Source of the DNA: Gemmatimonadaceae bacterium
Lineage (GTDB): Bacteria; Gemmatimonadota; Gemmatimonadetes; Gemmatimonadales; Gemmatimonadaceae
Length of the DNA stretch: 64,000 bases
Direction: 5' to 3'
NCBI GenBank assembly: GCA_019637355.1
Contig: JAHBVT010000001.1
Coordinates: forward strand, 868,001 to 932,000
In this document: positions 2,450 through 6,721 of the stretch, piece after piece
How positions within the stretch are numbered: the stretch's first letter is position 1
Layout: every line of letters starts with the position of its first letter
Program-made: the position numbers and the translations under genes
Notes under the pieces: model-generated
The model's database searches: none
What the model saw: the letters and a program-made list of their open reading frames with translations, nothing else
Told to the model about the DNA's origin: nothing

Positions 2450-2499
2450 CCGGCCCGGCCGATGTGACGCGGGGGGCCGTCCCTGCAGTCAACGGGAGT

Positions 2500-3045
2500 A
2501 TGGACGACCTGACCGACGCGGAATTGGTGGCGGAAACCAGGCGGGGCAACCAGCGGGCGTTCGCGGCGCTGCTGCGCCGGTACCAGGACCGGCACGCGCG
2601 CTTCGCGGCGCGAATGCTGGGTGATGCCGACGATGCCGATGACGTGCTGCAGTCGGTGTTCGTGCGGGCCTTCCGCCACATCGGGGACTGCGAGGATCCG
2701 TCGCGGTTCGGGGCTTGGCTGCACCGGATCGTGGTGAATGAATGCCGTACCTTTGCGGCGCGACGGGGGCAGCGTGAGCTGCGGTTCGTACGCGAGCCGC
2801 TGACGCTTGATGGGCTCGAGGCGCCGGGGGCTGAGGGCGACCCAGCGTTGCGGGCGCGCATCGGGGCCGCGGTGGCGGAGTTGCCGGTGGAGATGCGCGA
2901 GGCGTTCCTGCTCAAGCACGTCGAGGAACTGGAGTATGAGGAGATGGCGGAGCTGACCGGGGCGGGAGTCTCCGCGCTGAAGATGCGAGTGAAGCGGGCA
3001 ATCGAACGGCTGCGCGAGCAGCTTGCGGAGGTGGCATATGTCTGA
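2500..3045 (+). CDS. ECF-type RNA polymerase sigma factor
   Basis: A sigma-70 family extracytoplasmic-function factor. Region 2 (LVAETRRGNQRAFAALLRRY, then DADDVLQSVFVRAFRHI) and region 4 (LPVEMREAFLLKHVEELEYEEMAELTG, then the recognition helix near the C-terminus) are clear. The ATG at 2500 gives the typical compact start (MDDLTDAELV, 181 residues). A GTG at 2464 in frame would add 12 atypical residues. The stop overlaps the anti-sigma gene by 8 bp, and a strong GGAGGTGG sits inside the sigma gene, implying translational coupling. The signal it responds to is probably the one sensed by that anti-sigma factor. Confidence 0.9.
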   Translation: MDDLTDAELVAETRRGNQRAFAALLRRYQDRHARFAARMLGDADDADDVLQSVFVRAFRHIGDCEDPSRFGAWLHRIVVNECRTFAARRGQRELRFVREPLTLDGLEAPGAEGDPALRARIGAAVAELPVEMREAFLLKHVEELEYEEMAELTGAGVSALKMRVKRAIERLREQLAEVAYV

Positions 3046-3595
3046 CGGAACGGAGCGGATGGACACGGAAGAGTTTGCGGCGCGCGTCGCGGCACCGCTG
3101 AAGGCGCCGGTGGCGCTGCGCGCGGACTTCGAGGCGCGGGTGATGGCCCAGGTGGCGGAGGCGGCGCGTCCCTGGTGGCGGCGTCGGCGGCAGATCGCGT
3201 TGTCGCCGCTGGGCGGCCTCGCGCTGGCGGCCGGCTTCGGCGCGCTGATGGTGCTCGGCGGCTACGGCCTTGGGGCGCGGCAGGCCGCGTCGGCACCAAG
3301 CGCGGCACCGGGCGTGCAGATCGTGCGCTTCGTCCTCGATGCGCCAGACGCGCAGTCGGTAATGCTCGCCGGCGACTTCAACGGATGGTCGCGCGTGGCG
3401 ACGCCGATGGAAGCCGTCGACGGCACGGGCCGCTGGGCGGTCACGCTGACGTTGCCGTTCGGGCGCCACGAGTACGCGTTCGTGGTCGACGGCGAGCGTT
3501 GGGTGGCTGATCCCTATGCGCAGACGGCGCGCGACGAGTTCGGGCAGGAGAGCTCGGTGATGCGGCTCGAAGCTGAACCGCGTCGCGGGGCTTAG
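3038..3595 (+). CDS. Membrane anti-sigma factor with periplasmic CBM48-like domain
   Basis: The 185-residue protein starts at the ATG at 3038, preceded by GGAGGTGG at 3027-3034 within the sigma gene. About 45 cytoplasmic residues are followed by one membrane helix (roughly 48-72, GGLALAAGFGALMVLGGYGLG). The rest is an external domain with the early-set/CBM48 signature: VMLAGDFNGW, then PFGRHEYAFVVDGERWVADP. That fold binds glucans in glycogen-branching enzymes and AMPK beta subunits. Position and topology make it the partner that holds the preceding ECF factor at the membrane. The inference that it senses a glycan or an envelope protein rests on the domain only. No zinc-binding ZAS motif is evident. 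Confidence 0.82.
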   Translation: MSDGTERMDTEEFAARVAAPLKAPVALRADFEARVMAQVAEAARPWWRRRRQIALSPLGGLALAAGFGALMVLGGYGLGARQAASAPSAAPGVQIVRFVLDAPDAQSVMLAGDFNGWSRVATPMEAVDGTGRWAVTLTLPFGRHEYAFVVDGERWVADPYAQTARDEFGQESSVMRLEAEPRRGA

Positions 3596-3614
3596 CCTGC
3601 CGCGAACTCCGGCG

Positions 3615-4754
3615 GTGGCGTTGGTGCTGGCGTGCGGCTTCGTGGCCGCACGCGGGGCGTTGCCTGCGCAGGAGCTGAACGCGTCGCTGGGCCTCGGTGC
3701 CTCGCGGGTGGAGTTCGCCGATGAGCCGGCGTTCGGCTCGACGACCATCAGCCCGACCATCACAATGTCCGGCGCGCGCGGCAGTCTCGGAGTGGGTGGG
3801 ACCTTTGCGCGGGTCGGGCTCGCGAGTTGGTCCCGCCAAGGCGTGCTGCAGGGTTCGCTGTTCTCGCCGGTGTCGTCTGGCGGGTGGATGTTTGAAGGCA
3901 GCGGCACCGCTGGCGGGGCGCGCTTTCCGAGCGGATTCGCCACGGGGCAGGGCCTCGGCGCGCTGCGTCTGCACCGCGTGGGTGCGAAAGGGTCTGGCTG
4001 GGCGGGCGGAGCCGGTGGTGCGATGTACGACGGCGCCGACTGGCGACACGTGCAGCAACTGGAACTCGGCGGGATGCTCAGCGGCGCGCGCGCGCGCCTC
4101 ACGGTGATGTTGACGCCCGCCGCCGTGGACGACACGCTGCGGTACGCTGACCTCTTGGGAATGTACGGCACGGCCGTCGGGCCGTTGGATGTGTCGCTGT
4201 CGCTGGGTGGCCGGGCGGGCGCGACCCTCCCGATCGTGGGTGGCGACGCCCGGGTGTGGGGTGGCGCGAACTTCAATTGGTGGGTGCAGCCGCGCATCGC
4301 GCTCACCACCGGCGTGGGCACCTACCCGGTGGATCTCGCGCAGGGGTTTCCGGCCGGACGGTATGTCAGCGTCGGTCTGCGCTTCGGCGCGCGGCGCAGC
4401 CTCACGGCGATTGCCCAAGCGTCGGCGCGGGCGACGGCCGCTGCGGCGCGGGATGCGGGCGTCGATGCGTTCAGCCTGCGTCCCGACGGTGAGGCGGGCG
4501 TCGCGATTCGTGTGCGGGCGGCCGGTGCAGCTCGCGTCGAGGTGGCGGGGGACCTGACTCGCTGGGCGCCGGTGCGCCTCGAGCCGGCCGGTGACGGGTG
4601 GTGGTGGGCGCGGCTGCCTGCGAGCGGCAGCGAGGTCATCGAGTTGGCCCTGCGCGTGGACGGCGGCCCCTGGCTCACGCCTCCGGGTGCGGATCCCGTA
4701 CGGGATGAGTTCGGCGGAATGAGCGGTCGTGTGACGCTGCGCGGTCGGTTGTGA
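3615..4754 (+). CDS. Exported envelope protein with C-terminal CBM48-like domain
   Basis: About 379 residues. After a signal peptide (LVLACGFVAARGALPAQ) come some 240 residues of Gly-rich alternating strands suggesting an outer-membrane or surface beta structure. The last 90 residues resemble the CBM48-like module of the upstream anti-sigma factor: VEVAGDLTRWAPVRL aligns with its GDFNGW strand, and DPVRDEFGG with its ARDEFGQ. The GTG at 3615 gives a signal peptide without a positive N-region. An in-frame CTG at 3573, inside the anti-sigma gene, would supply one, so the start is uncertain. It lies 19 bp after the anti-sigma gene and is likely in its operon. Function unknown; a surface partner for the sensor is plausible. 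Confidence 0.65.
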   Translation: MALVLACGFVAARGALPAQELNASLGLGASRVEFADEPAFGSTTISPTITMSGARGSLGVGGTFARVGLASWSRQGVLQGSLFSPVSSGGWMFEGSGTAGGARFPSGFATGQGLGALRLHRVGAKGSGWAGGAGGAMYDGADWRHVQQLELGGMLSGARARLTVMLTPAAVDDTLRYADLLGMYGTAVGPLDVSLSLGGRAGATLPIVGGDARVWGGANFNWWVQPRIALTTGVGTYPVDLAQGFPAGRYVSVGLRFGARRSLTAIAQASARATAAAARDAGVDAFSLRPDGEAGVAIRVRAAGAARVEVAGDLTRWAPVRLEPAGDGWWWARLPASGSEVIELALRVDGGPWLTPPGADPVRDEFGGMSGRVTLRGRL

Positions 4755-4809
4755 CGCGGCGCGAGGGACCTGCGGTCTCTGGAGCGAACCTCCAGCAGGA
4801 GCACGAACG

Positions 4810-5532
4810 ATGCAACGGACAATGGAGCGGACGATGAAGCGGTTCACGACGGTGTTGGCGGCGATGGTGGCGTTCTCGGCAGGCGCGGGTGCGCAGGTGC
4901 CGACGGATGTCGATGCGCGGCTGCGCGAAGTCTTGCCAGCGGACGTGGCGGACCGAGTGCTGGCGCGAATCGCCGAGGCGCGCAGCCGGCAGTTGCCGCC
5001 GCAGGCGGTGACGGCGCTGGAGAACCGGGCGCTGAAGTTTGCGTCCCGCGGCGTCGCGCCGGCCGAGGTGGAGCGTGCCGTGGGCGAGCACGCGCACCGG
5101 ATGCAGCAGGCGCGTACGGCGATCGAAGCGGGCCGTGGCCGCGCGGCGTTGGGCGACGAGATTGACGCCGGCGCCGAGGCGATGCGCCAGGGCGTGGATG
5201 GCTCGGCGGTGAGCGCGTTGGCGCAGTCCGCACCGTCGGGCCGCTCGCTGGCGGTGCCGCTGTACGTGATTGGGTCGCTGGTGGAACGCGGCTTGCCGTC
5301 GGATCAGGCGCTGCAGCGGGTGCAGGAGCGGCTGACCGCCCGTGCGAGCGACCGCGACCTGGAGCGGATGGCGCGCGAGCAGGCCCGTGGCCGTCCGGAA
5401 GGCGTGGGTCCCGGGATGCGCCCGACCGATCGCCCGGGCGCCACGGGGCGTCCGGAGAACCTGCCCGCGACGGGTGGCCGGCCGGCGACGACGCCGCGCC
5501 CGACGCCGCCGGCGGGTCCGGGCCGGCCGTAA
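4810..5532 (+). CDS. Secreted helical protein with Pro-rich tail, unknown function
   Basis: The 240-residue product begins with a Lys/Arg-containing signal peptide ending near AGAGAQ. A good AGGAG lies 8 bp before the ATG at 4810. A second ATG at 4834 (MKRFTT) would also give a signal peptide. The middle is Ala/Arg/Glu-rich and predicted helical. The last 45 residues are Pro/Gly/Arg-rich and probably disordered. It follows the CBM48-containing genes in the same direction with a 55-bp gap and precedes a terminator. I recognise no domain. Confidence 0.6.
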   Translation: MQRTMERTMKRFTTVLAAMVAFSAGAGAQVPTDVDARLREVLPADVADRVLARIAEARSRQLPPQAVTALENRALKFASRGVAPAEVERAVGEHAHRMQQARTAIEAGRGRAALGDEIDAGAEAMRQGVDGSAVSALAQSAPSGRSLAVPLYVIGSLVERGLPSDQALQRVQERLTARASDRDLERMAREQARGRPEGVGPGMRPTDRPGATGRPENLPATGGRPATTPRPTPPAGPGRP

Positions 5533-5713: not shown

Positions 5714-6721
5714 ATGGGTCGGCTCGGTTGGCTGGCTGCGGTAGTCGGGGTGCTGGCGCTGTCCGCGTCGGGCGGCGCCCAAGATTCTCCCCTGCGCGAC
5801 ATTGTGGGCCGCGTGGTCGGTCCGGACGGTGCGGGAATCCCGTCCGTGCTGGTCCGCGCGCAGCGCGGCGACGACGTGCGCGAGGCGCTCACCGACGAGT
5901 CGGGGAGCTACCGCATCGTGGGGGCGTGGGCCGGCACCTGGTCGGTGACGATGCGGCGCATCGGCTACGTCGCGGACTCGATGACCGTCGAGGTCACGGA
6001 TGTGGCGCGACTGGACCGCCAGCTGGCGCGCGCCGCGCTGCGTGTGGACGGCCGCGTGATCACGGCATCGTGGTCCGGCGTCCACGGCGTGGTGGGCGAT
6101 CGCGGGTACCAGCCACTGGCCGGTGCGACCGTCGAGGTCGTGGGGCGTGAGCTTTCGTCGGTCGTGACGCCCGAGGGGCAGTTCGCACTACCCGAACGCG
6201 TCGGCGCCCCGGTGCTGCTGCGCGTGCAGGCCCCCGGCTACGCGACGCGGCTCGTGTCGGCGCGCGTCCCGGAGGATGGCGCAATCGAGCTCTCCGTGCT
6301 GCTCGATCGCGCCGAGGGGCGCGGCATCAATTCCGTCATCGCGGACGAACTCGACCGACGGATGACGTGGTCGAGCCCCCTCGCCGCCCGCGTGACGCGC
6401 AGTGAGGTGCTGGCGACCGAGGCGCGCGACCTCAGGCTGGCGTTGGAACTGACTCCGTCGGTGAACGCGAAGGGGCTGCGCATCTCGCGCGCGGCCTGCG
6501 TCTTCGTGGATGGCGTGGCACGCCCGGGATTCCCGCTGGATGCCATCCGACCCGAGACCGTGGAGTTCATCGAGTTCTATGCGGGCGGTGCCGATCGCCA
6601 GGGCCTGTTGGCGCGTCGCTGGCCACCGCGGGGCGAGTGCGGCTTTGGCGGGCGCGGGCCGGTCGACGCACAGAACAGCGCCGGTGTGCAGTACGTCGTC
6701 GTGTGGACGCACAAGGCCTGA
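5714..6721 (+). CDS. Exported protein with carboxypeptidase-regulatory-like domain and plug-like tail
   Basis: 335 residues with signal peptide (MGRLGWLAAVVGVLALSASGGAQ). Residues about 28-105 form a carboxypeptidase-regulatory-like beta sandwich (IVGRVVGPDGAGIPSVLVRA, DESGSYRIVGAWAG). A second similar domain follows (LAGATVEVVGRELSSVVTPEGQF). The last 100 residues resemble the start of a TonB-receptor plug (ACVFVDGVARPGF, ETVEFIEFYAGG) but there is no barrel. Proteins of this form are common in Gemmatimonadota and Bacteroidota as orphan plug-like proteins. The role is unknown. A start-proximal GGAGG lies at 5703-5707. Confidence 0.65.
   Translation: MGRLGWLAAVVGVLALSASGGAQDSPLRDIVGRVVGPDGAGIPSVLVRAQRGDDVREALTDESGSYRIVGAWAGTWSVTMRRIGYVADSMTVEVTDVARLDRQLARAALRVDGRVITASWSGVHGVVGDRGYQPLAGATVEVVGRELSSVVTPEGQFALPERVGAPVLLRVQAPGYATRLVSARVPEDGAIELSVLLDRAEGRGINSVIADELDRRMTWSSPLAARVTRSEVLATEARDLRLALELTPSVNAKGLRISRAACVFVDGVARPGFPLDAIRPETVEFIEFYAGGADRQGLLARRWPPRGECGFGGRGPVDAQNSAGVQYVVVWTHKA

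Follow-up and report, generated by a model that had tools for sequence, protein, structure and literature searches.

An ECF sigma cassette of a Gemmatimonadaceae bacterium with CBM48 domains on both the anti-sigma factor and a probable outer-membrane barrel

In a 64,000-nucleotide stretch of a Gemmatimonadaceae genome (the window), we describe a set of four genes running in one direction (positions 2500-5532) that encode an ECF sigma factor, its anti-sigma factor, an exported β-rich partner and a small exported helical protein, termed g4. The anti-sigma factor and the partner each carry a CBM48 domain, and this pair of domains is old, as judged from a tree that spans two phyla. We propose, with a probability of about 0.5, that the cassette acts as a glycan-responsive, self-limiting envelope switch.

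Results

Layout of the cassette

The four genes lie on the forward strand downstream of housekeeping genes, with RNase HII at positions 1826-2449. The sigma operon has a putative ECF promoter, TGTGAC-N18-AGTC (2463-2491, forward strand), which carries a motif common to the cassettes of relatives and precedes the sigma gene (2500-3045; 181 aa, ATG start). The anti-sigma gene (3038-3595; 185 aa) begins before the sigma gene has ended, its start overlapping the sigma stop codon. It is followed by the partner gene (3615-4754), with an uncertain start codon and a signal-peptide-like start to its product, and by a second putative promoter of the same type, TGTGAC-N18-GGTC (4750-4778, forward strand), which precedes g4 (4810-5532). 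This fourth, conserved member of the cassette fell within the range covered by the initial annotation but was not discussed in that finding. The same genome holds a second full cassette on the minus strand (locus L015, 5640-8806). A carbohydrate enzyme or transporter was not found in the cassette, which counts against a glycan-responsive reading.

The sigma factor and its membrane-anchored anti-sigma factor

The sigma factor matched Sigma70_r2 (E 4e-15) and Sigma70_r4_2 (E 1e-11), both above the Pfam cut-off, and the NCBIfam sigma70-ECF model with 81.7 bits against a cut-off of 42.9; a short protein with sigma2 and sigma4 domains is what defines the ECF class (group IV). Hydropathy analysis of the anti-sigma factor revealed a single hydrophobic stretch (aa 55-73) preceded by an RRRR run, which separates a short N-domain, predicted to be cytoplasmic, from a CBM48 (aa 92-178; 3311-3571, forward strand); the positive-inside rule would place the CBM48 in the periplasm. 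The sigma gene adjoins the anti-sigma gene in nearly all loci, as is typical of a cotranscribed anti-sigma factor with one transmembrane helix. Pfam domains above cut-off, overlapping genes and the lone membrane helix thus confirm, at the level of sequence, the ECF pair named in the initial annotation. The CBM48 with its GDFNGW motif, also noted there, was recovered by AMPK1_CBM (E 7e-12; 45.8 bits, cut-off 26.8) and by CBM_48 (E 1e-10, above cut-off), and all 55 anti-sigma relatives matched both families.

The N-domain of the window's anti-sigma factor had no Pfam match; among relatives, RseA_N (E 0.008, one relative) and zf-HC2 (E 0.018) both stayed below cut-off. Covariation was computed on 117 full cassettes, which amount to about 82 effective sequences and make for a weak test. 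Under one clustering, the anti-sigma N-domain and the sigma factor covaried with z 6.3, the other pairs ranging from -0.1 to 3.3, which favours the N-domain as the candidate sigma-binding part; under stricter clustering, no pair stood out.

A divergent CBM48 at the C-terminus of the partner

The C-terminal domain of the partner (aa 285-379; 4467-4751, forward strand) carries the motif GDLTRW and, when the window copy was searched alone, matched CBM_48 with an E of 0.13 only, below the Pfam cut-off. At the family level, 35 of 43 partner relatives matched AMPK1_CBM at E <= 0.01, and profile-profile alignment (hhalign) joined the partner to the anti-sigma profile with 99.1% probability (E 1e-18, 84 columns). 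AlphaFold modeled the domain mostly at pLDDT >= 90, and structural alignment of the model with the CBM of AMPK β1 gave a Z of 11.3 and 2.1 Å over 83 residues; further matches, in a comparison that also included a Foldseek run, were to the CBM48s of branching enzymes and feruloyl esterases. Because the family matches, the profile-profile alignment, and the predicted structure and its alignment agree, the GDLTRW domain is a true divergent copy with the AMPK-β/CBM48 fold. The initial annotation had made this very proposal, naming structure prediction as the check and an unrelated domain as the outcome that would speak against it; the predicted fold is that of a CBM48, and we reject a chance resemblance on the strength of the profile match, the family Pfam matches and the structural alignment.

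Another part of that proposal, namely that CBM48s elsewhere lie in the cytoplasm and go with glycogen enzymes, does not hold. Solved CBM48s occur on feruloyl esterases, one of them in complex with xylobiose, and other phyla (loci L011 and L013) encode exported proteins that have four such repeats.

The body of the partner (aa 22-262) is probably an outer-membrane barrel with roughly 12 strands, a prediction drawn from its family alignment. Amphipathic-strand periodicity reached z 4.0 against column shuffles, with 13 strand-like segments compared with 5.6±1.7 in the shuffles and helical periodicity below chance. Porin_4 was matched by 2 of the 43 partner relatives, and AlphaFold pLDDT fell below 50 over the barrel region. 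The chain of an outer-membrane barrel normally terminates on the periplasmic side, so the CBM48 at the C-terminus should, as in the OmpA-type topology, protrude into the periplasm.

The cassette recurs within the phylum and in a second one

Relatives of the anti-sigma factor were present in 52 of 61 related genomes, often at two places about 2 kb apart. We read 142 loci of the window's phylum in full, each picked by a match to the anti-sigma factor or g4, so that this one gene is present by construction and the others are not; all four genes were found in 117 loci and the partner in 121. The usual order is sigma, anti-sigma, g4 and barrel, from which the window differs in having the barrel before g4. 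Among the 21 partner-less loci, five stop at a contig edge and about 16 have room downstream; most of the latter belong to few lineages and have other neighbours, e.g., an M14 carboxypeptidase in locus L068. These 16 or so loci also count against the glycan-responsive reading.

The cassette also occurs in a second phylum, that of the "Bacteroidetes bacterium" record (L011, G406), where the g4 profile matched 4 of 247 genomes and a refined g4 profile 21 of 394. Four wide loci show the order sigma, anti-sigma-CBM48, barrel-CBM48 and g4, with a DUF4382 lipoprotein gene next in three of them. A CBM48 protein adjoins g4 in all 20 g4 loci fetched from this phylum (a set that includes the four wide ones), and DUF4382 comes next in 15. 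In the window's phylum, DUF4382 is found near 24 of the 142 loci, nearly always divergently oriented. The conserved set of sigma, anti-sigma and CBM48 genes that the initial annotation proposed to look for is borne out in both phyla by these counts, and we rejected the notion of a gene set local to the window's genome. A scan of genome contigs with a single anti-sigma protein found CBM48s in other contexts only—a ParA fusion, an amylase, a protease and the exported four-repeat proteins—and no cassette, while a search for named relatives in a plasmid collection returned no match.

In a tree of 80 CBM48 domains, the anti-sigma copies of both phyla formed one clade (98/93) and the partner copies of both phyla another (98/95); with 88 columns only, its finer forks are unsure. 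These separate cross-phylum clades mean that the pairing arose before the cassette spread between these phyla or within them, and in this sense the anti-sigma/partner CBM48 pair is old.

Sugar-contact residues

AMPK β holds β-cyclodextrin via W100, W133, K126 and N150 (PMC9788615). Among anti-sigma factors of the window's phylum, the equivalents of W100 and W133 are kept at frequencies of 1.00 and 0.73, the K126 position is mostly A (0.75) and N, S or G stands at N150. Partners of the same phylum keep both tryptophans (0.99 and 0.97), with the K126 and N150 equivalents replaced. Both window copies retain only the two tryptophan positions, which counts against the glycan-responsive reading. In the second phylum, all 19 partners have W100, K/R126, W133 and N150, and the anti-sigma factors have both tryptophans and the asparagine throughout, with mostly M at K126. 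Judged by the contact residues retained in each, the second-phylum module is likely to bind a saccharide, and that of the window may do so, perhaps with a different specificity. The glucan sensing suggested in the initial annotation thus gains from the contacts kept in the second phylum and loses from the window copies, which keep half.

Putative promoters and predicted output

Promoters are treated here as sequence motifs; mapped start sites are another matter. A bipartite motif precedes the sigma genes: the window's group has TGTGAC-N18-RGTC[AT], another group TGTGAC-N16-GGGTA. Of 135 cassettes, 70 have one of the two types ahead of sigma, with 0 for the reversed patterns. Across the loci, the N18 motif had 30 matches against 1 for its reversed pattern. 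Throughout the 3.15 Mb genome, TGTGAC-N18-RGTCW matched three times (reversed control, 1), two of these matches lying in this cassette. The TGTGAC-N16-GGGTA type had 18 matches in the same genome against 10 for its control, and a regulon listing from it was dropped as too unspecific. A promoter motif also stands before DUF4382 genes in 13 of the 24 loci of the window's phylum (control, 0), and in three second-phylum loci (L243-L245) sigma and DUF4382 have GTAAC-N14-[GA]TCGTC in common.

The promoter motif whose mapping was proposed in the initial annotation is thus visible as TGTGAC-N18-RGTC before both sigma and g4. With this common ECF promoter, the main output of the switch would be the cassette itself, and the sigma operon is predicted to be autoregulated. 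The motif counts strongly imply that the switch would turn on little beyond the cassette, plus the DUF4382 lipoprotein in many relatives.

The helical protein g4

The window copy of g4 matched no Pfam family at E 0.1 or better. AlphaFold predicted eight helices over aa 26-183 with a pLDDT of 90.5, even from the single sequence, and a Foldseek search of the PDB with this model returned nothing at E <= 1e-3. The best VIA matches were designed helical repeats at Z 9.6, a value within the range that is uninformative for helical models. The gene adjoins that of the anti-sigma factor in nearly all loci. In the window's phylum its profile matched 258 of 395 genomes (97 of 138 genera), single genomes having as many as five copies; in the phylum to which the Zixibacteria locus belongs, it matched 0 of 132 genomes.

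Discussion

We give even odds to a glycan-responsive, self-limiting envelope switch that would work as follows. The anti-sigma factor would cross the inner membrane once, exposing its CBM48 in the periplasm, and would keep the sigma factor bound until this domain detects that a saccharide of the periplasm or envelope has changed. The freed sigma factor would raise the levels of the barrel, g4 and its own regulators, and the CBM48 of the barrel, by using the same ligand pool or by moving the ligand, would close a negative feedback loop.

Another reading, which we regard as unlikely, is that the anti-sigma factor senses defects in outer-membrane assembly, by analogy with RseA. Its CBM48 would then serve only as a stably folded periplasmic part that controls the access of a protease, and the barrel and g4 would be the output. 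An output made of envelope proteins and limiting itself fits such a stress response, as does the below-cut-off RseA_N match of one relative. However, this reading leaves unexplained why homologous CBM48s sit on both proteins and why the second-phylum partners have complete sugar contacts, and neither a chaperone nor a protease was seen in the cassette.

We see a slightly smaller chance for a reading already named in the initial annotation, that the CBM48 of the barrel binds that of the anti-sigma factor directly, or that one saccharide is held between both, in which case the anti-sigma factor would read the presence or state of an outer-membrane protein, much as FecA signals to FecR. Each cassette does encode two homologous, probably periplasmic domains, kept in two phyla as old separate clades. 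Coevolution, however, does not support such pairing: the two CBM48s covaried with z 2.6, which is not above control pairs (anti-sigma CBM48 with g4, z 2.9; about 82 effective sequences). Moreover, some cassettes have no adjacent partner. The broader idea that the twin CBM48s link the inner-membrane anti-sigma factor and the outer-membrane barrel across the periplasm, directly or via one saccharide, is one that we put forward as unlikely. Finally, a polysaccharide-utilisation system, whose anti-sigma factor would detect an external glucan and whose regulon would import and degrade it, is very improbable: the sensor does bear a CBM48 and the second phylum retains sugar contacts, but glycoside hydrolase, SusC/D pair and transporter are all absent from the cassette, and the promoter pattern matches little else in the genome.

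Several known systems resemble the switch proposed here in part. In FecI/FecR/FecA, one gene set encodes an ECF sigma factor, a one-pass anti-sigma factor and an outer-membrane protein, the latter two having periplasmic parts. The cassette likewise joins an ECF sigma factor, a one-pass anti-sigma factor and an outer-membrane-type protein, the last two with predicted periplasmic parts; unlike Fec, it has a smaller barrel, an extra domain at the C-terminus of this barrel, a CBM48 on both partners and a helical protein. No FecR, TonB-receptor or STN domain was matched in Pfam by the anti-sigma (n=55) or partner (n=43) families, and the cassette is therefore not a member of the Fec kind. The clostridial SigI/RsgI biomass sensors also have an anti-sigma factor with an extracytoplasmic carbohydrate-binding module. 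They differ in sigma family and anti-sigma fold, in being Gram-positive, in a regulon of cellulosome genes and in lacking an outer-membrane partner, and the RsgI N-terminal anti-sigma domain had no Pfam match in the 55 anti-sigma factors.

In Pseudomonas aeruginosa, a coupling between the ECF sigma factor SigX and an outer-membrane porin has been proposed for the SigX/CfrX/OprF system (PMC8999054); CfrX, however, is a small soluble anti-sigma factor, and neither CBM48 nor g4 is reported there. The likeness to AMPK β covers the fold and both stacking tryptophans and, for the second phylum, the full contact set, whereas the cassette CBM48s are exported rather than cytosolic, sit on an anti-sigma factor or barrel rather than on a kinase or amylase and, in the window, are without K126 and N150. 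SCO4117 is a known ECF sigma factor fused to a carbohydrate-binding domain, and a 2020 survey linked about 79% of Gemmatimonadetes ECFs to class I anti-sigma domains (PMC7406223). A description of the cassette was not found in the open literature searched, and the main ECF reclassification could list such a group.

ECF systems are a main bacterial readout of the envelope, and the input of most is obscure. The cassette, which about two thirds of the genomes sampled from the window's phylum carry and which also occurs in part of a second phylum, offers a concrete ligand class for testing and a promoter motif ready for reporters. It also provides a first hint at a role for DUF4382 lipoproteins and, in g4, a new family of exported helical proteins. 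If the link between the twin CBM48s were true, the cell would gauge its own outer-membrane protein or an envelope glycan by matched domains—a signalling mode distinct from both STN/FecR and RseA/DegS.

Genomic context of the cassette

The promoter motif of the cassette, a bipartite ECF-type sequence preceding its sigma gene, is also borne by neighbouring genes for DUF4382 lipoproteins. These lipoproteins repeatedly adjoin the cassette in both phyla, i.e., that of the window (taken as Gemmatimonadota) and that of a 'Bacteroidetes' record, as at L162 (1973-3145), L174 (142-1626) and, in the latter phylum, L243 (9270-10094; coordinates count within each locus). Among the open literature searched, DUF4382 is named by one paper. 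A different exported protein, divergent from sigma and behind a divergent promoter motif, was observed in L188 (1-1473, minus strand; no Pfam match) and L057.

In the window, the cassette is immediately followed 3' by a gene for an exported protein with two CarboxypepD_reg-type domains (5714-6721). Cassettes without an adjoining barrel gene often have a long exported protein on their 3' side (L068, 1101-2951; also L073, L085, L157, L163, L168, L176 and L199); that of L068, the single one scanned, is an M14 zinc carboxypeptidase. Two copies of g4, encoding a small exported helical protein, occur per cassette in L052, L062, L155, L205 and L211. An 81-aa ORF lies 5' of sigma in L047 (672-917), and looks like an anti-sigma N-domain plus TM helix without CBM48.

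Outside the cassette, an AMPK-beta-type CBM was found at the C-terminus of ParA-like ATPases (L007, L008, L010 and L012), whose source genomes are Zixibacteria and Phycisphaerales.
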